Source: Gallionella sp.
Lineage (GTDB): Bacteria > Pseudomonadota > Gammaproteobacteria > Burkholderiales > Gallionellaceae
Length of the DNA: 36,466 nucleotides
Assembly (NCBI GenBank): GCA_013044075.1
Contig: JABEVG010000029.1
Coordinates: forward strand, 1 to 36,466
Direction of reading: 5' to 3'
Shown here: positions 4,319-18,381 of the stretch, piece after piece
Position numbering within the stretch: position 1 is the stretch's first letter
Layout of the letters: each line of letters opens with the position of its first letter
Position numbers and translations under genes: made by a program
Notes under the pieces: model-generated
What the model was told of the DNA's origin: nothing
Database searches by the model: none
What the model saw: the letters and a program-made list of their open reading frames with translations, nothing else

Positions 4319-4594
4319 ATGTCTGTCGAACTCGAACAGCAATGCATCAATACCGTTCGACTCCTGTCGGTGAACATGGTGCAAAAGGCCAACAGCGGGC
4401 ATCCTGGGCTGCCGCTCGGTGCTGCGGCTATGAGCTACGTGCTATGGATGCGCTGGCTCAAGCACAACCCGAAAAATCCGCACTGGTTCAATCGCGCATT
4501 GCTGCGCGAATATGGTTTTACCGTCGACAATGTCTGCATGCGGGCCAAAGCTTTGTTGGTGAGTTCACTGGTTTCTGCGGACGCTCAATCATGA
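4319..4594 (+). pseudogene. tkt: Internally deleted transketolase (N-terminus joined to C-terminus)
   Basis: From the ATG at 4319, residues 1-60 match the start of transketolase, including the thiamine-diphosphate region motif NSGHPGLPLG (25-34) and LKHNPKNPHW. The sequence then jumps at about 4499 to the last residues of the same family: REYGFTVDNVCMRAKALL (63-80). About 570 of the usual 650-690 residues are missing, including the pyrophosphate-binding GDG motif and the pyrimidine-binding domain. The join is in frame, so a 91-residue protein could still be made, but it cannot be active. Its TGA stop overlaps the ATG of the decarboxylase gene (ATGA at 4591-4594), suggesting the two were once co-translated. 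Confidence 0.82.
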
Positions 4595-6258
4595 CAAGCC
4601 CAAAGATTACCGTTGCCGAATACCTGTTGATCCGCCTGAAACAAATCGGAGTGGATCATCTGTTTGGCGTGCCGGGAGATTTTGTTCTCGGTTTCTTCAA
4701 TCAGGTGCTGAACAGCGAAGTGAAATACGTCGGCACCTGCAACGAGCTCAACGCGGCCTATGCCGCTGACGGTTACGCGCGCATCCGGGGGATAGGTGCT
4801 TTTGCCACCACCTTCGGCGTCGGGGAGCTGAGTGCGATCAATGGCGTGGCGGGAGCATACGCAGAAAGAGTGCCGATCGTAGTGATAACCGGCTCGCCCG
4901 CGACGATCAATTTCCGCACTCGCCCCCTGTTGCACCACACCTTGGGCGATTACCAGATTCCACTGAGAATGTACGAGAAGATTACCGCTGCCTCCACTCA
5001 GCTCTCTTCGGGAGCAACTGCGCCTGATGAAATCGACCGAGTGTTGTCGACGTGCCTTTATTACCAGCTGCCGGTTTACATCAGCATTCCTTCTGACGTG
5101 GTAATAATGAAATGTAATCTGCCTGACGCTTTCCCTTTTCCAGTACACGCTCCCAGCGATCCAGGCGCTCTCGATGAGGCGATCAATGAAGCACTGGTCA
5201 TGCTGGCTAAGGCGCAGAGGCCAGTGGTGATAGGTGGTGTGGAGTTGATACGCTTCAAGCTGCAAAATGAATTTGCCGAATTTCTTGATAAAACCGGTTT
5301 TCCCTACGTCACCATGATGCTGGGAAAGACCATCCTGTCGGAGCAACACCCGCAATTCATCGGTCTGTTTGAGGGTGATCGGAGTCGCGATTATGTGCGC
5401 GAGCGGGTTGAATCGGCAGACTGCATCCTGCAACTCGGTGAATTGATGACCGACTTTAATACGGGCGGTTTCACCACCAATCTTGACGACTCCAAAACGA
5501 TTAGTGCCAACATCCGTACCGTCAAGATCAAACACCATTTTTTTGAGAACGTTTACTTGCGTGATTTTATTCTTGGACTGACCGCAAAGCTGATGCGGCG
5601 CGATCCTGCAACGCTGGAGATTCAACGCGCCATCGATGGCTGCGTACACCGGCATACCGAGCCGTACCGACCCGACGCACAGAAACTGCTGACCATCAAG
5701 CGCTTCTTCGACCGCATGAGTCATTTGGTCGAAAAAGATGCAATCGTCATCGCCGAAACAGGCGTGTCTTTGTTCAGTGCCGCAGAGATGCTCATGCCGG
5801 AAGGTGCGACCTTCATCGGACAGACGTTTTACGGGTCGATCGGCTATACGGTCGGTGCCACTCTGGGTGTTTGCATGGCCGCACAAGACCGCAGAGTCGT
5901 GTTGTTCGTGGGGGACGGTGCTTTTCAGGTGACCTGCCAGGACCTCTCGACCATGATCCGCTACGGCCTCAAGCCCACCATTTTTCTTCTCAACAATGAC
6001 GGCTACACCATCGAACGGGTGATCGTTGACCGGCCCTACAACGACATCCAACCCTGGAACTATCACAAGCTGGCGGAGGTGTTCGGCGGCGGTCTGGGTC
6101 TTGATGTGCGCACGGAAGGGGAGCTTGAAGATGCGCTGGATCAAGCCGCCATGGCGGATGGTCTAGTGTTCATTGAGATTCATACGGGGCGGCTGGATTG
6201 TCCCGAGGCACTGCGCAGTGCGGGCCGGTCAATGGCAAAGACAAATCACCTTGTTTAA
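4591..6258 (+). CDS. Thiamine-dependent pyruvate (or indolepyruvate) decarboxylase
   Basis: The 555-residue enzyme converts a 2-oxo acid, most likely pyruvate, to the aldehyde and CO2 non-oxidatively. All catalytic residues of the pyruvate decarboxylase family are visible: Asp30 in FGVPGDF, Glu52 in CNELNAAYAADGYAR (activates the cofactor), the His115-His116 pair in LLHHTLGDYQ, the diphosphate-binding motif Gly441-Asp442-Gly443 through Asn468-Asn469, and Glu475 in NNDGYTIE. The His-His pair separates it from acetolactate synthase. Pyruvate is favoured over indolepyruvate because an aldehyde dehydrogenase and an alcohol dehydrogenase follow directly. The ATG at 4591 is chosen because the family begins at this point; the frame is open further upstream only as a shadow of the transketolase remnant. 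Confidence 0.88.
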   Translation: MTSPKITVAEYLLIRLKQIGVDHLFGVPGDFVLGFFNQVLNSEVKYVGTCNELNAAYAADGYARIRGIGAFATTFGVGELSAINGVAGAYAERVPIVVITGSPATINFRTRPLLHHTLGDYQIPLRMYEKITAASTQLSSGATAPDEIDRVLSTCLYYQLPVYISIPSDVVIMKCNLPDAFPFPVHAPSDPGALDEAINEALVMLAKAQRPVVIGGVELIRFKLQNEFAEFLDKTGFPYVTMMLGKTILSEQHPQFIGLFEGDRSRDYVRERVESADCILQLGELMTDFNTGGFTTNLDDSKTISANIRTVKIKHHFFENVYLRDFILGLTAKLMRRDPATLEIQRAIDGCVHRHTEPYRPDAQKLLTIKRFFDRMSHLVEKDAIVIAETGVSLFSAAEMLMPEGATFIGQTFYGSIGYTVGATLGVCMAAQDRRVVLFVGDGAFQVTCQDLSTMIRYGLKPTIFLLNNDGYTIERVIVDRPYNDIQPWNYHKLAEVFGGGLGLDVRTEGELEDALDQAAMADGLVFIEIHTGRLDCPEALRSAGRSMAKTNHLV

Positions 6259-6280
6259 TGCTGCGAATTGGAATGGAGAC

Positions 6281-7663
6281 ATGATGACAAGGATTGATAA
6301 AGGGAATTGCGAATCTCGCGTTAAGACCAACGCTGAGCAGGTCATCTTCGCCACAGTCGATGCTGCCGTCCGCGCCGCAACTCAAGCGCAGCAAGTTTTC
6401 CAAGATCACAGTCTAGAAGTGCGACGCACCGTCATCAAAGCCATACGCGAGACTTCCATCGTCAATGCGGAACGATGGGGGTGCATGGCGGTTGAAGAGA
6501 CGAAGATGGGGCGTGCCGACGACAAGACGCAGAAGAATATTCTTTGCGCTACTCGTACACCCGGGGTGGAGGACATGCATTCGCGAGCCTACACCGGCGA
6601 TGAAGGTCTGACCTTGGTGGAATATGCTCCCTTCGGTGTGGTGGCGGCGGTAACCCCCTCCAACAACCCCGCCGCGACCATCATATCCAACGCTATCGGC
6701 ATACTGGCTGCAGGAAATTCCGTGGTCTTCGCCCCGCATCCTTCCGCAGTCAAGGTTTGTCAGGACGTGATGCGTACCCTGTCTTCGGCGATGGTCGCTG
6801 CCGGTGCTCCGGCGGGTTTGATCACCACGATTTCTCCGGTTACCCAAGAGATGACCAAGGCACTCCTGTCCCATCCTGGGATTAGCCTCAACTTGGTGAC
6901 CGGAGGTTCCGCGATCGTGAAGGTGGCGATGAGCACGGGCAAGATATGTAAGACCATTGCAGCCGGACCCGGAAACCCGCCTGTGGTCGTCGATGAAACC
7001 GCCATTTTTCCCAAATGTGTCGAGGACATCATTTTCGGTGCGAGCTTCGACAACAACGTGCTGTGCATCGCGGAAAAAGAAGTCATCGTAGTCGAGGCGG
7101 CCAAGGCGCGTTTTCTGGAGTGCATGCGTGTGGATCCGCGAGCCTTTGAGCTAACTGACTCTCAAATGGACGCATTAGCCGAGCTTGTCATCAAGACAAA
7201 CAAGGACGGCAAAGAACCGTTCATGAACCGCGACTATGTGGGGCGCGATGCGTCTGTCATTGCCAAAGGTATCGGCCTTGATGTTCCTTCTGCCACACGT
7301 CTGTTGTGGGGAGCCGTATCCAACGATCACCCTTTCATATGGGTCGAACAGCTCATGCCTATCCTGCCCGTCACCTTCGCGCAAGACGTGGACTCGGCCA
7401 TCGAGTTGGCTTATCGCGCTGAAGCGGGCAACCATCATTCCGCCGCCATGTATTCGACACACGTCGGGAATCTGTCCCGCATGGGGCGACGCTTGCAGTG
7501 CTCTATTTTTGTCAAGAATGCTCCTACGCTTTATGGACTGGGCATGGGCGAGGGGTATGCATCCATGTCCATCGGAACTCCGACCGGAGATGGCCTCACC
7601 AAGCCTTCGAATTTTGTCAGGCCGTTGCATTGCTGCCTCGTCGGATATTTCAGAATTGCGTGA
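6281..7663 (+). CDS. CoA-acylating aldehyde dehydrogenase (EutE/PduP type)
   Basis: The protein has about 460 residues, starting at ATGATG (6281 or 6284) after the ribosome site TGGAG. It resembles EutE/PduP enzymes, which interconvert aldehyde plus CoA and NAD+ with acyl-CoA and NADH. Family marks are EYAPFGVVAAVTPSNNP in the Rossmann region, GGSAIVKVAM, AAGPGNPPVVVDETA, and the catalytic Cys262 in FDNNVLCIAEKEV. The C-terminus (PTGDGLTKPSNFVRP) also matches. I see no microcompartment targeting helix and no shell protein genes nearby. It starts 22 bases after the decarboxylase, so acetaldehyde is the likely substrate, giving acetyl-CoA. Exact chain-length preference cannot be read from sequence. 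Confidence 0.88.
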   Translation: MMTRIDKGNCESRVKTNAEQVIFATVDAAVRAATQAQQVFQDHSLEVRRTVIKAIRETSIVNAERWGCMAVEETKMGRADDKTQKNILCATRTPGVEDMHSRAYTGDEGLTLVEYAPFGVVAAVTPSNNPAATIISNAIGILAAGNSVVFAPHPSAVKVCQDVMRTLSSAMVAAGAPAGLITTISPVTQEMTKALLSHPGISLNLVTGGSAIVKVAMSTGKICKTIAAGPGNPPVVVDETAIFPKCVEDIIFGASFDNNVLCIAEKEVIVVEAAKARFLECMRVDPRAFELTDSQMDALAELVIKTNKDGKEPFMNRDYVGRDASVIAKGIGLDVPSATRLLWGAVSNDHPFIWVEQLMPILPVTFAQDVDSAIELAYRAEAGNHHSAAMYSTHVGNLSRMGRRLQCSIFVKNAPTLYGLGMGEGYASMSIGTPTGDGLTKPSNFVRPLHCCLVGYFRIA

Positions 7664-7699
7664 AAAAATGCAAAAGCTCTATTACCGGAATAAATTGCC

Positions 7700-8791
7700 A
7701 TGAAAAAACCTGCTCACGACATCAATGCATCGGTCACGATGCAAGCACTGGTCTTCCACGGGGTGAATACCCTGGTGCTGGAGGAACGGCCCAAGCCAGT
7801 GATCAAAGAGGCAACGGACGCTATCGTGCGCATCACCACGACCACCATCTGCGGAACCGATCTGCACATACTCAAGGGCGATGTACCGACAATTTCAGAC
7901 GGTCGTATTCTTGGCCATGAAGGCGTGGGGATTATCGAGGAAGCGGGGAAAGGTGTGCTGAATTATCACCGGGGAGACAAAGTGCTCATTTCCCTGATTA
8001 CTTCCTGCGGCAGGTGCGGCTTCTGCAAGAAAGCAATGTATTCCCATTGCAGTCATGGCGGTTGGCTGCTGGGCAACAGCATTGACGGCACACAAGCCGA
8101 ATACGTCAGAATTCCCTATGCCGATACCGGGCTGTACCGTCTATCCCCCGAAGTCGATGAAGAGGCTGCAGTCATGCTCAGTTGCATTCTGCCCACAGGC
8201 TTGGAATGCGGGACGTTGAACGGCCAGGTGAAGCCGGGAGACATCGTGGCGATCATCGGTGCCGGTCCGGTCGGTCTGGCAGCAATGCTGACCGCGCAGC
8301 TCTATTCCCCTGCCGAAATCATCATGATTGATCTGGACGATAACCGGTTGGAGGTGGCGCGCACATTCGGTGCGACACAGGTCGTAAACAGCGCGGATGG
8401 CAAGGCGGCGCAACGGGTCATGGCACTGACGCAGGATGCCGGTGTGGACGTGGCTATCGAAGCAGTCGGTACTGCGGTGACCTTCGACATCTGCCAGGCG
8501 ATCATCGCCCCCGGCGGACGTATTGCCAACGTGGGCGTGCATGGCAAGCCGGTCGAACTGCACCTTGAGAAACTTTGGAGTTCCAATATCACGTTAACTA
8601 CGCGTCTGGTCGATGCGGGCACAACAACCATGTTGCTCAACATGGTTGAGTCGGGACGACTTGATGCAAAAAAACTCGTGAGCCACCGCTTCAAATTATC
8701 GGAAATCCTGAAAGCGTATGACACGTTCGCCAATGCGGCGCAGCAACATGCGGTAAAAGTGGTGGTCACAATCGGTGATGACGCCAAGTGA
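7700..8791 (+). CDS. Zinc-dependent alcohol dehydrogenase (MDR family)
   Basis: This 363-residue medium-chain dehydrogenase probably reduces acetaldehyde to ethanol or the reverse. Catalytic zinc ligands are Cys51 (TICGTDLH) and His73 with Glu74 (GHEGVG). The structural zinc lobe is complete, with Cys104, Cys107, Cys110 and Cys118. The nucleotide-binding Rossmann motif is GAGPVGLAA, followed by an acidic residue in IMIDLDDNR, which suggests NAD(H) rather than NADP(H). An internal Met14 begins the conserved MQALVFHG, so the true start could be at 7739. It lies 36 bases after the aldehyde dehydrogenase and overlaps the next gene by four bases. Threonine- or sorbitol-type dehydrogenase activity is an alternative that context makes less likely. 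Confidence 0.87.
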
Positions 8792-9573
8792 AGCGCGTTC
8801 AGCAAAGCACGATCGGACAGATCGTTCTTTTGCGGCATGGGGAAAGCGTCTGGAACAAGGAGAATCTCTTTACCGGATGGACGGATGTTGATTTGTCCGA
8901 GCACGGCAAAACAGAAGCAATCGAGGCCGGACGGGTCATGCAAGCGCATGGGCTTGTCTTCGACATGGCGTTCACTTCCGTGTTGAAGCGCGCGATATGG
9001 ACGCTGTGGCTGGTTCTGGACCAGATGGAACTGATGTGGATTCCCGTGCAGCGGGACTGGCGCTTGAACGAGCGGCATTATGGTGCGCTGCAGGGGCTGA
9101 ACAAATCCGAGACGGTCAGAAAATTCGGTGAGGCACAGGTCAAGCTCTGGCGGCGCAGCTATGACACCCGTCCACCCGCCCTCGACAAGAACGATCCGCG
9201 ACATCCACGGCATGATGCGCGTTACAGTGCGCTCAGCCAGAGTGAAATACCGGGTACGGAATGTTTGAAGGATACCCTGGAGCGTTTTTTGCCATGTTGG
9301 CAAGATCTCATCATGCCGGCAGTGCGTTCAGGAAAGCGCGTGTTGATCGTGGCTCATGGCAACAGCCTGCGTGCCTTGGTCAAGTATCTGGACGGTGTGT
9401 CGGATGCCGATATTGTCGAGATGAATATCCCCACCGGCATCCCGCTGGTGTATGAACTGGACGGGGAGACAAAACCGATTCGCCACTATTATCTCGGGGA
9501 TGCCGAACGAGTGCGAACGGCGATGCAAACAAGTGCCGATCACGTTTCACTGACGCATCAGAGGTGGACGTGA
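8788..9573 (+). CDS. gpmA: 2,3-bisphosphoglycerate-dependent phosphoglycerate mutase
   Basis: The 261-residue enzyme interconverts 3- and 2-phosphoglycerate in glycolysis. The phospho-accepting histidine is His17 in [10 protein letters not shown]; the family motif [15 protein letters not shown] follows. [16 protein letters not shown] carries the catalytic glutamate, and [14 protein letters not shown] carries the second histidine. The start is GTG at 8788, overlapping the preceding TGA as GTGA, so translation is probably coupled to the alcohol dehydrogenase. One oddity is the sequence RAIWTLW, where the family usually has RAIRTLW-like residues; the effect is unknown. A mutase inside a fermentation operon fits flow of triose phosphate to pyruvate and then to the decarboxylase. 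Confidence 0.9.
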
Positions 9574-9853: not shown

Positions 9854-9969
9854 TTCGATTGGGACTTTAACCATTGCCTGGTTGTGTGCGTTGGTGCGGC
9901 ACCGCACAGAAATAGCCGGCAATGTCGGGTAGTTTCGAAAACCGCAACCAAACACAGGGAATAACACCC

Positions 9970-10854
9970 ATGAATCCAATCACGTCATTTCTGGTTTTCG
10001 TTCTTACCATCGCGGGCCTTGCTGCCGGCAACTGGGTGAGTTCTTATCTGGCACTCGCGTTTTTCGCAGCTGCAGCAATCATCTCGATGTCACTGAAAAT
10101 GGCCAACACCTGGCAGAAGTTTGTCATCCTGAGGATGGGGAAGCTGCAAAGTGTCCAGGGAGCCGGCATGTTCGTCATCATCCCGATCATCGACAACGTG
10201 ATTGCAGTCATCGATGAGCGCATACAGACCACGGGCTTCAACGCCGAACAGGCACTGACCAAGGACACGGTTCCGGTCAATGTCGATGCAATCATATTCT
10301 GGCACGTGCATGATGCTGAAAAAGCAGCGTTGGCCATCACCAATTATCGCGCAGCCATCGACCAGGTTGCACAAACCTCGCTGCGCGAGATGATAGGGTC
10401 TTCGATGCTGGCGGCATTGCTATCCGATCGCAAGGATGCCGACGAGCAGCTGAAAAACGAGATAGGCGCGAAGACTGCTCCATGGGGCATAACGGTGGGT
10501 TCGGTGGAGATTCGCGATGTCGCCCTCCCCGAAGCGTTGCAGGATGCCATGTCGCGCCAGGCCCAAGCCGAGCGCGAGAAGCAGGCACGGGTAATACTCG
10601 GGGCCGCCGAAGCTGCAATCGCGGGCAAGTTTGTCGAAGCTGCCGAAATTTATGCCGGCCATCCCGCCGCACTCCAACTCAGAGCCATGAACATTATTTA
10701 CGAGACCACCAAGGAACGCGGAGCCACGATCCTGATCCCGAGTTCGATGGTCGACAGTCTGAATCCTTCGGTAACGAGTCTGGCACTTTCGCTCGCCACC
10801 AAAGAATTGGCTGTTCCAGAGGTCGTCCCACACAAAGTTGCAGCCGCAGAATAA
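9970..10854 (+). CDS. SPFH/band-7 membrane protein (slipin)
   Basis: The 294-residue protein has an N-terminal hydrophobic hairpin (about residues 5-45), then the band-7/stomatin domain: ANTWQKFVILRMGKLQSV, GMFVIIPIIDNV, the segment TKDTVPVNVDAIIFWHV, and a helical tail with AQAEREKQARVILGAAEA, the hallmark of slipins. Slipins form membrane-bound oligomers thought to scaffold or regulate membrane proteins, often paired with a NfeD-type protease. No NfeD gene is adjacent; an HdeD-like protein follows 12 bases later instead. The ATG at 9970 has the ribosome site AGGGA. A longer frame from 9922 is open but lacks a ribosome site. Confidence 0.87.
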   Translation: MNPITSFLVFVLTIAGLAAGNWVSSYLALAFFAAAAIISMSLKMANTWQKFVILRMGKLQSVQGAGMFVIIPIIDNVIAVIDERIQTTGFNAEQALTKDTVPVNVDAIIFWHVHDAEKAALAITNYRAAIDQVAQTSLREMIGSSMLAALLSDRKDADEQLKNEIGAKTAPWGITVGSVEIRDVALPEALQDAMSRQAQAEREKQARVILGAAEAAIAGKFVEAAEIYAGHPAALQLRAMNIIYETTKERGATILIPSSMVDSLNPSVTSLALSLATKELAVPEVVPHKVAAAE

Positions 10855-10866
10855 TCCAGGAGAAAA

Positions 10867-11418
10867 ATGATGAGCGTTCTAACCGTAGACAAAAAAATCC
10901 TTAATCAATTCGGGCCATATACCTTGATCACTGGAATCCTGCTGATCGTGCTGGGTACGGGAGGTATTTTACTGCCGGGTGTAATGTCCCTGAGTACCGT
11001 GCTCTTTGTCGGCTGGCTATTGCTGGTCGGCGGAAGTTTATGGGCCATTCACACCTATAGATATAGCCCGAAGAGTGTCATGGGCTGGATCAAACCCGCC
11101 CTGCTGTTCATCATCGGTGGCCTGATGCTGTTCTATCCTGTATCAGGCGTGGAAGTGGTCGGGTTGTTGCTAGCCGTTTATCTGTTATTGGATGCGATGC
11201 ACAGCTTCACCATCGCACAGTCTATCCATCCAGCCAAGGGCTGGGGTTGGATGGCATTCAATGGTGTTGTCTCGATCCTGTTGGCTTCGCTGTTTGTGCT
11301 CGGGTGGCCAGTCAATTCCCTGTGGCTCGTGGGTCTATATGTCAGCATCAGTCTGCTGCTTGATGGCTGGGCACTGATTGCTATCGGCTGGATGTTACGC
11401 AAAGGCAAGTCATCTTGA
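10867..11418 (+). CDS. HdeD-like (DUF308) membrane protein
   Basis: The 183-residue integral membrane protein has six hydrophobic segments in three hairpins, the layout of the HdeD/DUF308 family: ITGILLIVLGTGGILLPG near the start, then FIIGGLMLFYPVSG, then FNGVVSILLASLFVLGWP. In enterobacteria HdeD contributes to acid resistance at high cell density. The gene follows the slipin by 12 bases with a good AGGAG site, and two ATGs at 10867/10870 are both possible starts. Its position before acetate kinase and phosphoketolase suggests a role in tolerating organic acids; that is inference from context. Confidence 0.82.
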   Translation: MMSVLTVDKKILNQFGPYTLITGILLIVLGTGGILLPGVMSLSTVLFVGWLLLVGGSLWAIHTYRYSPKSVMGWIKPALLFIIGGLMLFYPVSGVEVVGLLLAVYLLLDAMHSFTIAQSIHPAKGWGWMAFNGVVSILLASLFVLGWPVNSLWLVGLYVSISLLLDGWALIAIGWMLRKGKSS

Positions 11419-11582: not shown

Positions 11583-12812
11583 ATGACGAAGGCATCCATG
11601 AAATCCGCTAGTTCACGCATCCTGACCATCAACGGCGGCTCGTCAAGCATCAAGTTCGCGCTGTTCGAGGCCGGTGATTCCCTGCAGCGGATTCTGGAGG
11701 GCGGGATCGAGCGGATCGGTTTGCCGGGGGCGGGCTTGCGGGTGCGAGGCATTAATCCGGCGGACAATTTTTCGCAGTCTGTGGAAGCACCCGATCACAC
11801 TGCGGCGGTGGAAGTGCTGATGGACTGGGTAGAGCAACGCAACAGCCATGAGGTTTTGACTGCGGTGGGACACCGCGTGGTGCATGGCGGGCCGAAGTTC
11901 AGCGAGCCGCAACGCATCACTGCGGAAATGATAGCGGAGCTGCACCGCCTCAGCCCATTCGATCCCGAACATCTGCCGGAGGAGATTCTGCTCACCGAGG
12001 CATTTCAGTGCCGCTTTCCCAATCTGAACCAGGTGGCGTGTTTCGACACGGCTTTCCATCATGACCTTCCCAGCGTCGCTCGGTTGTTGGCGATCCCGCG
12101 CCGCTACGAGGCGCAGGGCATAAGGCGGTACGGGTTTCACGGCTTGTCATATGAATTCCTGATGGCGGAACTCTCCCGCCTCGGCGATCCGGCTGCAGGC
12201 AAGGGACGCGTGATCCTCGCCCACCTTGGCAATGGCGCGAGCTTGGCGGCGGTGCACGACGGCAAGAGCATCGACACCAGCATGGGTTTCACCCCGACTG
12301 CCGGCCTGACCATGAGCACCCGCTCCGGCGACCTTGATCCGGGACTGGCCTGGTATCTGGCGCGCAGCGAAAACATGAGCGCGCAGCAATTCAATGAGAT
12401 GGTCAATACCCAGTCCGGGTTGCTCGGACTGTCGGAGACCAGTTCCGACATGCGCGACCTGCTCGATAACGAGGCGCATGACGTGCGCGCGGCTGAAGCG
12501 GTGGAGCTGTTTTGCTACCAGGCCAAGAAGTGGATAGGCGGCTACGCGGCGGCACTGGGCGGACTAGACACGCTGGTGTTCACCGGCGGCATCGGCGAAA
12601 ACGCGCCGGCGATTCGCGCCCGAATCTGCACAGGCCTGGAGTTTCTTGGCATAGAGATCGATGAAAAACACAACGCGGCGAACGATGGCCTGATTTCTGC
12701 GCCGGACGGACGGGTCTCGGTCCGTGTCATGCATGCCGACGAAGCGCAGATGATAGCCAAGGCGGTCTGCCGTGTTCTCAATCTTGACAAAAGAAGAAGG
12801 ATAGAAAAATGA
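11583..12812 (+). CDS. ackA: Acetate kinase
   Basis: The 409-residue enzyme makes ATP and acetate from acetyl phosphate. Family motifs run in order: [14 protein letters not shown] (N-terminal phosphate loop), [60 protein letters not shown] and [11 protein letters not shown]. Length is normal. An alternative start at 11601 has the better ribosome site AAGG; 11583 adds six residues. It is preceded by a 164-base gap that may carry its own promoter, and its TGA overlaps the phosphoketolase ATG (ATGA at 12809). The coupling to phosphoketolase shows that its acetyl phosphate comes from sugar phosphates rather than only from acetyl-CoA. Confidence 0.95.
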
Positions 12813-15181
12813 AAACTCTTTCCCCGGACCATCTGCACAAGATCGATGCCTACTGGCGCGCTGCGAACTATCTGTCGGTCGGCCAGATTTATCTGTACGA
12901 CAATCCGCTGTTGAAGCGTCCGCTGACGCTCGCGGATGTGAAGAAGATGCTGCTGGGTCACTGGGGCACGACACCGGGACAGAACTTCATCTACGCGCAC
13001 CTGAACCGGATCATCAAGAAATATGACCTCGACATGATCTACGTCTCCGGCCCCGGGCACGGCGGACCGGCCGTCGTGGCCAACACTTATCTCGAAGGCA
13101 CCTACAGTGAGATCTATCCCGACATCAGCCAGGACGAGGCCGGGCTGCAGAAACTCTTCAAGCAGTTTTCGTTCCCAGGTGGCATTCCCAGCCACGCGTC
13201 GCCGGAGTGCCCGGGCTCGATCCACGAGGGCGGCGAGCTGGGCTATTCGCTCAGCCATTCCTTTGGCGCGGTGTTCGACAATCCCGATCTGATCGTCGCC
13301 TGCGTGGTCGGGGATGGCGAAGCGGAGACGGGGCCGCTGGCCACTGCCTGGCATTCCAACAAGTTCCTTGATCCGGTCAACGACGGCGCGGTGTTGCCTA
13401 TCTTGCATCTCAACGGCTACAAGATTGCCAATCCGACCATTTTCGCGCGCATTGAACCGGAGGAACTGGAGCAGTTCCTGCGCGGCTGCGGCTGGATGCC
13501 TTATTTCGTCGAGGGCGATGAGCCGGCACTGATGCACGAGGCGATGGCGGCGACGCTCGACACGGTAGTGGAGCAGATCAGGAGCATCCAGCACGACGCC
13601 CGAATCAACGGCAACCTCACGCGTCCGCGCTGGCCGATGATAGTCCTCAAGTCGCCCAAGGGCTGGACGGGACCGAAGATGGTCGATGGCCTGCCAAATG
13701 AAGGCACTTTCCGCGCCCATCAGGTGCCGCTCGCCGTGGATGCCGAGCATCCCGAACATCTGGCCATGCTGGAAAACTGGATGAAGCACTACCGCCCGGA
13801 GGAACTTTTTGACGCACAGGGCCGCCTGCAACCTGAGCTGGCCGAACTGGCACCCAACGGCGAACGACGCATGGGTGCCAATCCGCACGCCAACGGCGGC
13901 ATGCTGCTGCGCGACCTGGTCATGCCGGACTTTCGCAACTACGCGGTGAAGGTCCCGTCACCCGGTGCTGTGATGGCGGCCGACACGCACGAACTCGGCG
14001 TGTTCCTGCGCGATGTGGCAAAGCTCAACCGGGAACAACGCAATTTCCGCATCTTTGGTCCGGACGAAACACTTTCCAATCGTTTGAATGCCGTTTTTGA
14101 GGTTACCAACCGGCAGTGGGAAGCACGCACGCAGGTCAACGATGAATTCCTCGCCCTGGATGGGCGGGTCATGGAGATGCTGAGTGAGCATCAGTGCCAG
14201 GGCTGGCTCGAAGGTTATCTGCTTACCGGACGGCACGGGCTGTTCAACAGCTACGAGTCGTTCATCCACATCATTGATTCGATGTTCAACCAGCACGCCA
14301 AATGGCTGAAGGTCACGGCTGAACTGCCGTGGCGGCGGAAAATAGCATCGCTGAATTACCTGCTGGCCTCCCACGTCTGGCAGCAGATGCATAACGGCTT
14401 TACCCACCAGGACCCAGGCTTCATCGATCACGTGACCAACAAGAAGGCTTCCATCGTGCGCGTTTATCTGCCGCCGGATGCCAACTGTCTGCTCTCGGTC
14501 TGGGATCATTGCCTGCGCAGCCGCCATTATGTCAACGTGGTGATTGCAGGCAAGTATCGGGCACCTCAGTGGCTGACGATGGACGCCGCCGTCAAGCACT
14601 GCACAGAAGGTATCGGCATCTGGCAATGGGCCAGCAACGGCCAGTTGGTTGCACCCGACGTGGTGATGGCCTGCTGCGGCGACGTGCCCACGCTGGAGAC
14701 GCTGGCCGCCGTATCTATCCTGCGTGAACATCTGTCCGAACTGAATATCCGCGTGATCAACGTCGTCGACCTGATGAAGCTGCAGCAGCAGATCGAGCAC
14801 CCGCACGGTTTGAGCGACATGGACTTCGACGAGTTGTTTACCCGTGACAAGCCGGTAATTTTCGCCTTTCATGGCTACCCGTGGCTGATCCACCGTCTCA
14901 CCTACCGCCGTACTAACCACGACAACTTCCACGTGCGCGGCTACAAGGAAGAGGGCACCATCACCACGCCGTTTGACATGACGGTGCTAAACGATCTGGA
15001 CCGCTTCCATCTGGCGATGGATGCTATCGACCGTCTGCCGCAGACCGGCGACAAGGGCATCGTCCTGAAGCAGCAGCTCAAGGACAAACTCATCAAACAC
15101 AAGCAGTACATCAACAAGCACGGCCAGGACATGCCGGAAATCCGCAATTGGAAATGGGGTGCGCCTAATGAATGCGCTTGA
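12809..15181 (+). CDS. xfp: Xylulose-5-phosphate/fructose-6-phosphate phosphoketolase
   Basis: The 790-residue thiamine-diphosphate enzyme splits xylulose-5-phosphate or fructose-6-phosphate with phosphate into acetyl phosphate plus glyceraldehyde-3-phosphate or erythrose-4-phosphate. Full length for the family. Diagnostic motifs are [39 protein letters not shown], the cofactor motif [16 protein letters not shown] with Asn in HLNGYKI, and the later ETYPWLIH-type segment [15 protein letters not shown]. The ribosome site AGAAGG precedes the ATG at 12809, which overlaps the ackA stop. Together with AckA it forms an ATP-yielding phosphoketolase shunt. Substrate preference (single or dual) cannot be decided from the sequence. 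Confidence 0.96.
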
Positions 15182-15293: not shown

Positions 15294-15371
15294 AAAACAC
15301 CTTAGCCTGACAACAAGAATTCCGCGATTCACAAAATTTTCAACGGCGTAAAAACGTAAGGAATATTCACC

Positions 15372-18173
15372 ATGAAAATCAATGCCGACTCGACCCAGGC
15401 TCCTGAATCGAAGCCAGAAGCGAAACCCGATTCCGAGTCGGCGAGCACCTCTAACGATAACCGGACCAACGGACTGACGAGCGACGAGGCCCGCCGCCTG
15501 CTGGCGAAGTTCGGCCCCAACACGATGCCGGATACGAGCATGCACCCGCTGCGCATGGCACTGGAAAAATTCTGGGCACCGGTTCCGTGGATGCTCGAAG
15601 CCGCCGTTGTGCTGGAACTGGTACTCGGCAAATATGTCGAGGCCGCGATCATCGCCGGACTGCTGGTGTTCAACGCGGCACTCGGACTGCTCCAGGAAAG
15701 CCGCGCCCAAGCGACGCTCACCGCACTGAAGTCGCGGCTTGCGCTGAGTGCGTCCGCCCGGCGCGACGGCGCGTGGGAAACCGTACCCGCGGCCGAGCTG
15801 GTGCCGGGCGACGTGGTGAAGCTCTCGCTCGGCGGCGTGGTGGCCGCGGATGTGCACATCACTGGCGGTGACGTTTTGCTCGACCAATCTATGCTTACCG
15901 GAGAATCGGTACCCATCGAAGCCGGCGCGGGCGTGCAAACCTTTGCCGGTGCGCTGGTGCGTCGGGGCGAGGCGGTGGCGGAGGTCACGGCGACCGGCGT
16001 GCGCACCAAGTTCGGCCGTACCGCAGAGCTGGTCCGCACCGCTCACGTCGTCAGTTCCCAGCAGAAGGCGGTGCTGCGCGTGGTGCGCAATCTCTCCGCG
16101 TTCAACGGTGTCGTCATCGTGGTGCTCGTGGCCTATGCCTACGTTCTCAAGATGCCGATGGCGGAGATCATCCCCCTCATCCTGACGGCGGTGCTGGCGA
16201 CAATACCGGTTGCACTGCCGGCCTCGTTCACCCTCGCGGCTGCACTCGGCGCGCGCGCCCTGGCAAAGCTGGGTGTCCTTCCGACCCGTCTGTCTGCGGT
16301 GGATGAGGCGGGAACGACGGATGTGTTGTGCGCCGACAAGACCGGCACGCTGACCCAAAATGCGCTGACAGTAACGACTGTTCATCCCATGCCCGGCTTC
16401 GACGAAGCCCATGTTTTGACGCTGGCCGCGCTGGCGAGCGCGGATGGCGGGCAGGACCCGGTGGATGCAGCCATACGCGCGGCCGCATCGAGCAAAGATG
16501 TCTCCGACGCGCCGACCTTGGTTAAGTTTGCGCCCTTCGATCCGGCGAAAAAGACATCCGAGGCGACCGCGACGGATGCGACCGGCGGCACGCAACGTAT
16601 CGTGAAGGGTGCCTTTGCCGTGGTCATCGGCCTCGCACAACCGTCGCCGACCGCGACCGCCGCAGCGGACAAACTCGAGGCGCAGGGCTTCCGCGTTCTG
16701 GCAGTGGCGGTGGGGCCGCCGACGGCAATGAATCTGGCGGGACTCATTGCGCTGAGCGACCCGCCGCGTTCAGACTCGGCGGCACTCATTACCGAATTGC
16801 ATGAGCTGGGCGTTCGCACCGTGATGGTGACGGGCGACGCGCCAGCGACTGCGGCTATCGTGGCTCGTGCGGTGGGCCTAGATGGTGCCGTCTGTCCGCC
16901 CGGTCCGATCCCCGACAACGTCCAGCCCGGGCAATTCGCGGTTTTCGCCGGTGTCCTCCCGGAGGACAAATACAATCTGGTCAAGGCATTCCAGAAGGAA
17001 AACCATACCGTCGGCATGTGCGGTGACGGTGCCAATGACGCGCCGGCACTGCGCCAGGCGCAAATCGGCATCGCGGTCTCGACGGCAACCGACGTCGCCA
17101 AATCGGCCGCCGGCATGGTGCTGACCGAGCCCGGACTCGCTGGCATCGTCGCCGCTGTCAAGGAAGGGCGAATAACGTTCCAGCGCATCCTCACCTACAC
17201 GCTGAATACCATCGCCAAGAAGGTCGTGACGGTGCTGTTCCTGATCGTCGGCCTAATCATGACAGGTCACGCGATCCTGACGCCGCTGCTGATGGTCATT
17301 GTGATGATCACCGGCGACTTCCTCTCCATGTCATTGACGACGGATAACGTGCGGCCCTCGCCGATGCCGAATGTGTGGCGCATCGGCAGCCTGACGATAG
17401 CCGGCGTCACCATGGGTATCTGCCTGCTCGCCTTCTGCACCGGTGTCCTGACCATCGGAAAATTTGGCATGAATCTGGGAATAGAGCCGCTGCGAACCCT
17501 GGCCTTCGTCGTCGTCGTGTTCGGCAACCAGGCGATGCTCTATGCCATTCGCGAACGCCGGCACTTGTGGGGCACTCGTCCCAGCCTCTGGCTTGTTGTG
17601 TCGTCCGTTGCCGATATCGTAATCACTTCGACATTGGCCGTCGGCGGAATCGCCATGACACCCTTGCCACCCTTGATGGTGACGGGCACGCTGGCGGCGG
17701 CGGTGGTGTTCGCATTTGTTTTGGACTTGGTGAAGGTTCCGGTATTCATTCGTCTCGGGATCGCCGATCGCCCGCACGAGCACCCCTTGACTCGTGTCGG
17801 CATAGCAAAGACGGAAGGAATACCCACGATGGAAACCAATGCCGAGCAACCCAAGGCTTCCGACTCAAAGCCTGATGCCAACCAAGCATCATCCGATTTG
17901 ACGACGCAGATTGCCAAGCGATCCTATGAACTTTACGAGGAGCGAGGTCGTCAGGACGGTCGAGCGGCTCAGGACTGGGAAAAGGCAGAACGGGAGATTC
18001 GGAAAGCCGAACCCGAGACCAAGCCCGAAGCCAAGGCACCGTCCGATTTGACGCCGGAACTCGTCAAGCGAGTGCATGAACTCTACGAGGCACTGGGGCG
18101 CAAAGACGTTCAAGCAGTCGAAGAACTGGAGAAGGCGGAGCGCGAGAGGCGGAAAGATGAACCCGGAAAATAA
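15372..18173 (+). CDS. P3A-type proton-exporting ATPase with C-terminal tandem DUF2934 repeats
   Basis: The 933-residue protein comprises a P-type ATPase (about 1-815) and an unusual tail. Motifs are LTGESVP in the actuator domain, IPVALPASF in the ion-binding helix, the phosphorylated Asp322 in CADKTGTLTQN, MVTGDAPAT, and GDGANDAPAL in the hinge. The short loops and PVALP motif fit plasma-membrane H+-ATPases rather than Ca2+ or heavy-metal pumps. No metal-binding domain is present. The first 35 residues are hydrophilic (KPEAKPDSES). Residues 820-933 hold two DUF2934-like units (from 841 and 891), each with a YELYE/HELYE helix and EKAERE. Near residue 820 an in-frame ATG copies the gene's own start region. 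The pump probably exports protons during acid-producing metabolism (inference). Confidence 0.9.
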   Translation: MKINADSTQAPESKPEAKPDSESASTSNDNRTNGLTSDEARRLLAKFGPNTMPDTSMHPLRMALEKFWAPVPWMLEAAVVLELVLGKYVEAAIIAGLLVFNAALGLLQESRAQATLTALKSRLALSASARRDGAWETVPAAELVPGDVVKLSLGGVVAADVHITGGDVLLDQSMLTGESVPIEAGAGVQTFAGALVRRGEAVAEVTATGVRTKFGRTAELVRTAHVVSSQQKAVLRVVRNLSAFNGVVIVVLVAYAYVLKMPMAEIIPLILTAVLATIPVALPASFTLAAALGARALAKLGVLPTRLSAVDEAGTTDVLCADKTGTLTQNALTVTTVHPMPGFDEAHVLTLAALASADGGQDPVDAAIRAAASSKDVSDAPTLVKFAPFDPAKKTSEATATDATGGTQRIVKGAFAVVIGLAQPSPTATAAADKLEAQGFRVLAVAVGPPTAMNLAGLIALSDPPRSDSAALITELHELGVRTVMVTGDAPATAAIVARAVGLDGAVCPPGPIPDNVQPGQFAVFAGVLPEDKYNLVKAFQKENHTVGMCGDGANDAPALRQAQIGIAVSTATDVAKSAAGMVLTEPGLAGIVAAVKEGRITFQRILTYTLNTIAKKVVTVLFLIVGLIMTGHAILTPLLMVIVMITGDFLSMSLTTDNVRPSPMPNVWRIGSLTIAGVTMGICLLAFCTGVLTIGKFGMNLGIEPLRTLAFVVVVFGNQAMLYAIRERRHLWGTRPSLWLVVSSVADIVITSTLAVGGIAMTPLPPLMVTGTLAAAVVFAFVLDLVKVPVFIRLGIADRPHEHPLTRVGIAKTEGIPTMETNAEQPKASDSKPDANQASSDLTTQIAKRSYELYEERGRQDGRAAQDWEKAEREIRKAEPETKPEAKAPSDLTPELVKRVHELYEALGRKDVQAVEELEKAERERRKDEPGK
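17829..18173 (+). other. Possible internally started 114-residue DUF2934 protein
   Basis: The in-frame ATG at 17829 is preceded by GGAAGGAATACCCACG, a good ribosome site. The stretch from AAGGAATA onward parallels the ATPase start at 15360-15372 almost base for base, and the encoded heads are alike (MKINADSTQAPESKPEA versus METNAEQPKASDSKPDA). This suggests the tail was once a separate gene made from, or giving rise to, the ATPase leader, and that it may still be translated on its own. Whether the short form exists needs protein data. Confidence 0.4.
17892..18170 (+). repeat. Tandem 150-bp coding repeat (two DUF2934-like units)
   Basis: The 12-base string TCCGATTTGACG occurs at 17892 and again at 18042, exactly 150 bp (50 codons) apart. 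The flanking codons stay similar: SDLTTQIAKRSYELYEERGR against SDLTPELVKRVHELYEALGR. The period in whole codons and retained DNA identity point to an in-frame tandem duplication of one domain. The second unit has lost the conserved aromatic residues of the DWEKAERE part (it reads ELEKAERE). Confidence 0.75.
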
Positions 18174-18189: not shown

Positions 18190-18381
18190 ATGCTTTGGTT
18201 CGGCATAGTGTACCTGCTGTTTTCGAACATCGGGAACTGGGGAGACCGTTACCGTTCGCACCAGAAACATGACTCACGGTCACTGAAAACGGGGCTCGAT
18301 ATTCTCAACGAGAGAGATGCCCGAGGAGAGGTAAGCCGCGAGGAATACGGGCAAATGAAGTCCGATATGTCCGGAAAATAG
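18190..18381 (+). CDS. Small SHOCT-domain protein
   Basis: The 63-residue protein has a short hydrophobic N-terminus (LWFGIVYLLF) and a C-terminal SHOCT-like motif: DILNERDARGEVSREEYGQM. SHOCT segments are found at the ends of many small membrane proteins and are thought to mediate oligomerisation; no function can be assigned. It begins 16 bases after the ATPase with the ribosome site AAGGGG and probably belongs to the same transcript. Confidence 0.65.
   Translation: MLWFGIVYLLFSNIGNWGDRYRSHQKHDSRSLKTGLDILNERDARGEVSREEYGQMKSDMSGK

Follow-up and report, generated by a model that had tools for sequence, protein, structure and literature searches.

The window analyzed here, a 36,466-nucleotide (nt) stretch of Gallionella sp. 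DNA (contig JABEVG010000029.1; contig 109 of a 2.2-Mb source assembly in 124 contigs), carries an open reading frame (ORF) in which a P-type ATPase runs on into a C-terminal tail containing DUF2934 (Table 1). Pfam assigned Cation_ATPase_N, E1-E2_ATPase, Hydrolase, and DUF2934 to this ORF. The best NCBIfam family was the plasma-membrane proton pump TIGR01647 (594.6 bits, just under the cut-off of 615.5), and the top PDB matches were 5ksd, 1mhs, and 7vh5, with AHA2 and Pma1 as the nearest solved relatives. The catalytic positions D322-T326, T176-S179, T487-D489, G551-G553, and N555-P558, blocks that we take to be the P-type motifs DKTGT, TGES, TGD, and GDGxNDxP, were invariant in 29 aligned sequences. 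So was D649 in transmembrane helix 6 (TM6), which pairs with the aspartate of ILNDG in 5ksd, the equivalent of AHA2 Asp684 (role of the TM6 acidic residue as described in excerpts of PMC10654040). For the basic residue in TM5 (AHA2 Arg655), the arginine of ITIR aligned to a valine near residue 619, with K616 and K617 nearby. We read this as a P3A-type ATPase, probably one exporting protons; its host is probably an acid-loving iron bacterium. Two further P3A-like matches in the same genome (C48 and C3; 41 to 46% identity) both lacked DUF2934. Tail-less orthologues (Acetobacteraceae, Xanthobacteraceae, Rhodanobacter, Acidobacteriota, and others) terminate after an (R/Y)(L/F).I. motif at about residue 798 of the window protein. 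An earlier, sequence-only reading had ended the ATPase at about residue 815 and had placed two DUF2934-like units behind it; the fusion and the units stand, and the boundary moves to near 798.

The extension totals 135 residues. Its first unit matched Pfam DUF2934 (PF11154) over residues 844 to 877 (E = 2.3 × 10−10; 40.4 bits; gathering cut-off of 22; 45.5 bits in the genome scan). The second unit scored below the Pfam gathering cut-off, the scan returning a single DUF2934 stretch even at E values up to 1; it is recognizable as a repeat by 70% DNA identity to the first over 130 nt (17886 to 18015 and 18036 to 18165) and 55% protein identity over 33 residues. Both units were helical in two AlphaFold models, each of low confidence (mean predicted local distance difference test scores of 48.6 and 54.1). 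When the tail alone was compared with the PDB, the best match reached only E = 0.081.

At the join, the beginning of the pump gene is found a second time. The two leader blocks are identical at 55 of 75 nt (best ungapped score of 35, whereas 300 shuffles averaged 8.7 and never exceeded 16). The repeat had been reported as 17815 to 17846 matching 15359 to 15390; the copy is real and longer than that, with the register shifted by one (15358 to 15389; 26 of 32 nt). The copy at the join also resembled the leaders of other P3A genes, namely those of SKS1.bin120 (80% over 81 nt), of G256, which belongs to a different P3A clade and another family of the order (78% over 67 nt), and of Methylocapsa (75% over 76 nt), and the resemblance takes in bases upstream of the start codon. 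Given this resemblance, the join has the appearance of a fossil leader from a pump gene; it is probably an earlier spacer plus leader sequence that is now translated. The proposal that the tail was once a separate unit joined to the ATPase is borne out to the extent that the tail begins with a copied pump-gene leader. The Methylocapsa P3A gene itself opens with a leader resembling that of a different P3A clade (L142:1624-1900), a sign of recombination at the 5′ ends of pump genes.

The same pump-DUF2934 fusion was present in five assemblies: the window, LL2.bin39 (taken as G110), FK4.bin2 (G010), SKS1.bin120, and “Candidatus Gallionella acididurans” ShG14-8 (G050). Three of the four other assemblies belong to Gallionella. 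Orthologue loci were collected from 36 places, of which 29 were readable to the C terminus and seven were left out at contig ends; L136, read through an internal stop, was counted as tail-less. Besides the window, DUF2934 was C-terminal in four of the 29 readable loci (LL2.bin39, SKS1.bin120, FK4.bin2, and ShG14-8), a relic in one, N-terminal in two, and absent from 22. The relic follows the Ferrovum myxofaciens P3G pump, where 38 bases match window unit 2 (89%; E = 3 × 10−8) out of frame shortly past the pump end. The N-terminal units belong to the Myxococcota P3A pumps of palsa_1114 and YP4.bin102 (26.5 and 17.9 bits, respectively; cut-off of 22, the second being below it). Across the 76 genomes of the genus scan, a pump at least 84% identical was found in four, all four with the unit. 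A sequencing or assembly error as the source of the fusion, including the loss of a stop codon in this way, was ruled out by the four other fused assemblies and the Ferrovum relic.

Selection on the tail was compared among the five fused orthologues as the ratio of nonsynonymous to synonymous substitution rates (dN/dS) in ten pairs, nine of which were usable for unit 1 (dS was saturated between the window and FK4.bin2). Unit 1 ratios of 0.025 to 0.215, against 0.150 to 0.236 for the core, were lower than those of the core in 8 of 9 pairs, whereas ratios rose as high as 0.88 in the join and 0.73 in the leader. Unit 2 was comparable in only three pairs with few changes. It is missing from FK4.bin2 and SKS1.bin120, and linker lengths vary greatly among the fused orthologues; in “Ca. 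G. acididurans” (L062:6517-9546), the linker between the units has swollen to many KPEA repeats. The dS of unit 1 exceeded that of the core in 10 of 10 pairs, as expected if the unit has been exchanged with diverged copies.

DUF2934 was also found on other pumps. Long frames with DUF2934 in the genus and order genomes were read gene by gene and checked with Pfam and NCBIfam; a home-made DUF2934 hidden Markov model was seeded partly with units it had recovered, and our conclusions rest on the Pfam scores. C-terminal units above the Pfam cut-off occurred in two other P3A clades (G022, G228, and G906; G234 and G256) and on copper-type P1B pumps adjoining the P3A gene in G234 and G256. P1B pumps of G045 and G041 carried an N-terminal unit above the cut-off (G041 being cut by a contig end). 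The third architecture was the alternate F1F0 ATPase, whose subunit B (AtpF) bore a C-terminal unit in G050, G022, G055, G103, G041, G228, and G897 (7/7 above both cut-offs); an eighth AtpF locus with a similar unit, that of G046, is cut by a contig end and was not scanned by itself. Low-complexity tails like the KPEAK-type ones of AtpF also end AtpD-like frames (L170 and L169) and an AtpA-like frame (L169). G897 retains a DUF2934-tailed P3A pump solely as a C-terminal fragment in open frame (L169:4660-5220).

The C-terminal units of P3A, P1B, and AtpF share 48 to 97% of residues (second units excluded), and the P3A unit of G234 has 87% DNA identity to the P1B unit of the same genome. The AtpF unit of G103 is divided in its affinities. 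Its first 48 nt are 85 to 94% identical to four AtpF units and 75 to 83% identical to the first units of Gallionella-lineage P3A genes (G010 and SKS1.bin120 included). Its last 51 nt are 65 to 75% identical to AtpF, 84 to 90% to the P3A units of the window, G050, G110, and SKS1.bin120, and 71 to 82% to those of G010 and G022. This unit thus looks as though it had been exchanged between pump genes, judging from 48 plus 51 nt compared without a significance test. A P3A tree of 43 cores required four changes of C-terminal state, three of them forced by well-supported branches, and one more for the N-terminal form. Each change could be a gain or a loss, and the tree carries a long-branch warning and an odd composition for the tailed L105. 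Three same-genus duplicates, two P1B and two other P-type frames, the partial L136, and also L009, L010, G906, and G111 were omitted from it.

DUF2934 is common: 68 of the 76 genomes scanned for the genus, 134 of the 399 for the order, and 88 of the 398 for the phylum contained a match. Most of the matches listed fall in frames shorter than 300 amino acids. In the phylum sample, only two of the matches listed lay in frames longer than 600 amino acids: the window's own and that of G778, where a small free DUF2934 gene sits within a long chance frame. In the other DUF2934 gene of the window's genome (L001:856-1626; G000:C8), a long lysine/alanine-rich, histone-H1-like stretch precedes the domain. 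The 114-residue tail beginning at 17829 had no match at 10−5 among plasmid records. A 40-residue unit of G234 matched 345 plasmid records, 280 from Sinorhizobium or Rhizobium, and the Microvirga and Azospirillum examples were both free DUF2934 genes.

Among 158 family genomes, we found no intact free orthologue of the tail. A search at E values up to 0.01 gave 27 matches in 20 of these genomes. The 17 matches at 3 × 10−8 or better were pump or AtpF frames (including the truncated P3A fragment of G897 and the contig-cut AtpF of G046). The ten weaker ones included the N-terminal P1B units of G045 and G041 and free proteins of another subtype in G886, G877, G116, and G106; G839 could not be made out, and G906:807673 was not read. 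Two short units of the pump-like subtype (L160 and L161, in G849 and G856) are decayed: each is broken by an internal stop, and no pump frame accompanies it in the stretch read. The relatives therefore do not keep the tail as a consistently separate gene, the situation that the sequence-only reading had named as speaking against a fusion.

The genes around the pump are listed in Table 1. DUF2934-tailed P3A genes have an SPFH homologue nearby in G234, G228, and G906 and a DUF308 homologue nearby in G234 and G228, although the pumps of these three genomes belong to other clades. The DUF308 protein of G228 gave a weak match to the HdeD acid-resistance model (45.4 bits; cut-off of 189); that of the window gave none at 10−10. 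Farther upstream (4342-9573) is a fermentation-like set of a thiamine pyrophosphate-family decarboxylase, an acylating-type aldehyde dehydrogenase, an alcohol dehydrogenase, and a phosphoglycerate mutase. Downstream of the pump, the SHOCT-like ORF (18190-18381) has a counterpart with a longer N terminus in “Ca. G. acididurans,” and the window copy looks shortened. The island may serve acid or energy stress. FNR-type boxes were considered as a sign of low-oxygen control and dropped (4 found, 3.84 expected). PPK2 was encoded at 6 of the 10 P3A loci with a tail, at both of the two with an N-terminal unit (43 to 48% identity), and at 9 of the 22 without a tail, all of these being lower bounds since loci differ in length; the PPK2 of the window's genome (above cut-off) is on another contig. 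P3A is directly followed by PPK2 with or without a tail (L174:6004-9198 and L113:1853-5455), also on a Rhizobium rhizogenes plasmid.

Table 1. Positions of the fused pump gene, its parts and neighbors, and DUF2934-bearing frames at other loci
Feature	Position	Strand	Basis
ORF, 933 amino acids, P-type ATPase plus DUF2934	15372-18173	+	Uninterrupted reading frame, Pfam
N-terminal leader peptide, residues 1-32, weakly constrained	15372..15467	+	Leader comparison, dN/dS 0.10-0.73 in ten pairs
P3A-type ATPase core, residues 33-798	15468..17765	+	Ends at stopping point of tail-less orthologues
Join/linker, residues 799-841 (43 residues), disordered in low-confidence model	17766..17894	+	Alignment, dN/dS, AlphaFold
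DUF2934 unit 1, residues 842-880, two helices (low-confidence model), strongly constrained	17895..18011	+	Pfam, dN/dS, AlphaFold
Diverged DUF2934-like unit 2, residues 892-930, repeat of unit 1	18045..18161	+	DNA repeat, AlphaFold
Leader block copy 1: ribosome-like site, ATG (15372), first codons of pump gene	15350..15424	+	Repeat search
Leader block copy 2, similar to the 5′ leaders of further pump genes	17807..17881	+	Repeat search, DNA comparison
Internal ATG behind a ribosome-site-like sequence, not conserved in relatives	17815..17831	+	Orthologue comparison
SPFH/Band 7 protein, HflK match below cut-off	9922..10854	+	Pfam/NCBIfam
DUF308 membrane protein	10867..11418	+	Pfam
Acetate kinase	11583..12812	+	Pfam
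Phosphoketolase	12809..15181	+	Pfam
Small ORF, sub-threshold SHOCT match	18190..18381	+	Pfam
Copper-type P1B ATPases with DUF2934, two C-terminal and two N-terminal	L105:9424-11550, L106:10947-13154, L068:9146-11323, L072:6942-8599		
AtpF with C-terminal DUF2934, often with KPEAK-type tails	L062:16518-17786, L066:6060-7289, L070:7136-8431, L071:7220-8566, L074:667-1662, L075, L169:16055-17146, L170:8163-9401		
PAS-GGDEF-like proteins, N-terminal DUF2934 of another subtype	L069:6749-8392, L073:156-1385		

Related domains on several kinds of ion pump hint at a common docking or control device. We tentatively propose, as a plausible reading, that the tail forms a hairpin in the cytoplasm through which ATP-driven cation pumps dock to, or are regulated by, a shared partner. 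More speculative, and somewhat less probable, is the wider idea that this DUF2934 subtype is a transferable pump tag, attached repeatedly and mostly C-terminally to P3A pumps, P1B pumps, and the F1F0 stalk, exchanged by recombination, and plugging these pumps into one shared cytoplasmic partner. The extension itself probably arose when the stop codon of the pump was lost and translation ran on through the spacer and a second 5′ leader. This leader would have belonged to a downstream unit made up of a pump-type leader and DUF2934, perhaps the remnant of a tandem pump gene that had lost its core. The DUF2934 unit would bind the common partner as a docking or regulatory tag, and the tag might recruit or control such pumps when the cell faces acid or energy stress.

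Several observations weigh against this proposal. The 22 of 29 readable orthologues without any DUF2934 imply that pumping does not depend on the unit. With only 21 to 42% identity, the N-terminal P1B units stand far from the others, so the units borne by pumps are not all of one subtype. Nor is the subtype confined to pumps, since free DUF2934 proteins resembling the pump units (51 to 61% identity) are common on rhizobial plasmids and one is present in G778; PAS-GGDEF proteins carry DUF2934 too. No structure shows docking, and both AlphaFold models are poor. PPK2 was considered as the partner of the tail and rejected as not tail-specific, given its presence in tail-less loci.

Autoinhibition is the nearest alternative: the tail would be an inhibitory domain of this pump, analogous to the regulatory (R) domains of plant and fungal pumps and independently evolved. 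We regard this as unlikely, though serious enough to keep in view, since the tail occupies the same end of the same pump class at a similar length and its unit 1 is strongly constrained. Excerpts of PMC10654040 describe the plant and fungal regulatory domains as mutually nonhomologous, which makes a third independent one conceivable. However, similar units sit on P1B pumps and on the F1F0 stalk, the matches to plant and fungal pumps stop short of the tail, and in the Myxococcota P3A pumps a more distant unit is N-terminal, where the same contacts with the P3A core would be impossible. A tether is preferred over an inhibitor because one kind of tag is found on three unrelated pump architectures. 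If the helical units instead packed pumps into arrays by oligomerization, as in the Pma1 hexamers (PMC8575881), then the tandem short helices on a linker that looks flexible in the low-confidence model would be accounted for, as would the SPFH gene that neighbors the pump in the window and in G234, G228, and G906. AtpF, in contrast, already works within a defined rotary complex, where clustering would bring no obvious gain; we consider such clustering improbable.

The sequence-only reading also allowed for a free 114-residue product initiated at 17829, which could act in trans. A ribosome-like site and an ATG, copied from a real start, do exist there. This start is kept in only two of the five fused orthologues (the window and FK4.bin2). 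In SKS1.bin120 the codon is TTG and the site before it weaker, and LL2.bin39 and ShG14-8 have lost the start by deletion, so that a conserved internal start was ruled out. With an intact free orthologue also lacking in the family, a separate product seems quite improbable. It is very improbable, finally, that the tail is a neutral read-through passenger derived from a decayed neighboring unit. The fossil-like leader at the join, the widely differing linkers, the loss of unit 2 from two orthologues, the nearly complete loss of the tail in Ferrovum, and the decayed units of G849 and G856 would all suit such an origin. In contrast, unit 1 is retained in 5 of 5 fused orthologues with a dN/dS below that of the core in nearly all pairs, and similar units recur on other pumps.

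In the parts of the open-access literature that were available, DUF2934 was rarely named, and its mention alongside an ATPase was limited to a protein list; the available part of PMC5178258, on acidophilic Sideroxydans, named a P-type ATPase only in the title of a reference on Kdp. Excerpts of PMC10654040 contrast prokaryotic P3A pumps with those of fungi and plants, which bear extended regulatory termini. These bacterial P3A pumps are extended too, by a domain different from the plant and fungal termini, and DUF2934, a Pfam family of unknown function, gains a testable role. Its recurrence on other pump classes offers a route to a regulator or scaffold that the ion pumps of these bacteria might have in common.

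Compared with the P3A plasma-membrane H+-ATPases AHA2 and Pma1, the window pump has the same catalytic core and motifs and the aspartate in TM6, while it misses the TIGR01647 equivalog cut-off. Its tail has no sequence relation to the C termini of these pumps, matches to which end at query residues 746 to 756; like the R domain, it is C-terminal on a P3A pump, and it is comparable in length (135 residues versus about 100 in the plant R domain, according to excerpts of PMC9708826). Subunit B of the N-ATPase, the alternate F1F0 ATPase (TIGR03321), belongs to the stalk of a rotary enzyme, is unrelated to P-type pumps, and is not encoded in the window; the likeness lies in AtpF of the relatives, which has a similar C-terminal unit and a lysine/glutamate/proline-rich tail. 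Unlike most DUF2934 (PF11154) proteins, the window unit rides on an ion pump, and the C-terminal pump units follow the pattern RAYELYEQ.GR.DGH..QDW..AEREI, whereas the free DUF2934 proteins of the genus that were read are of the AAYF.AERRGF type.

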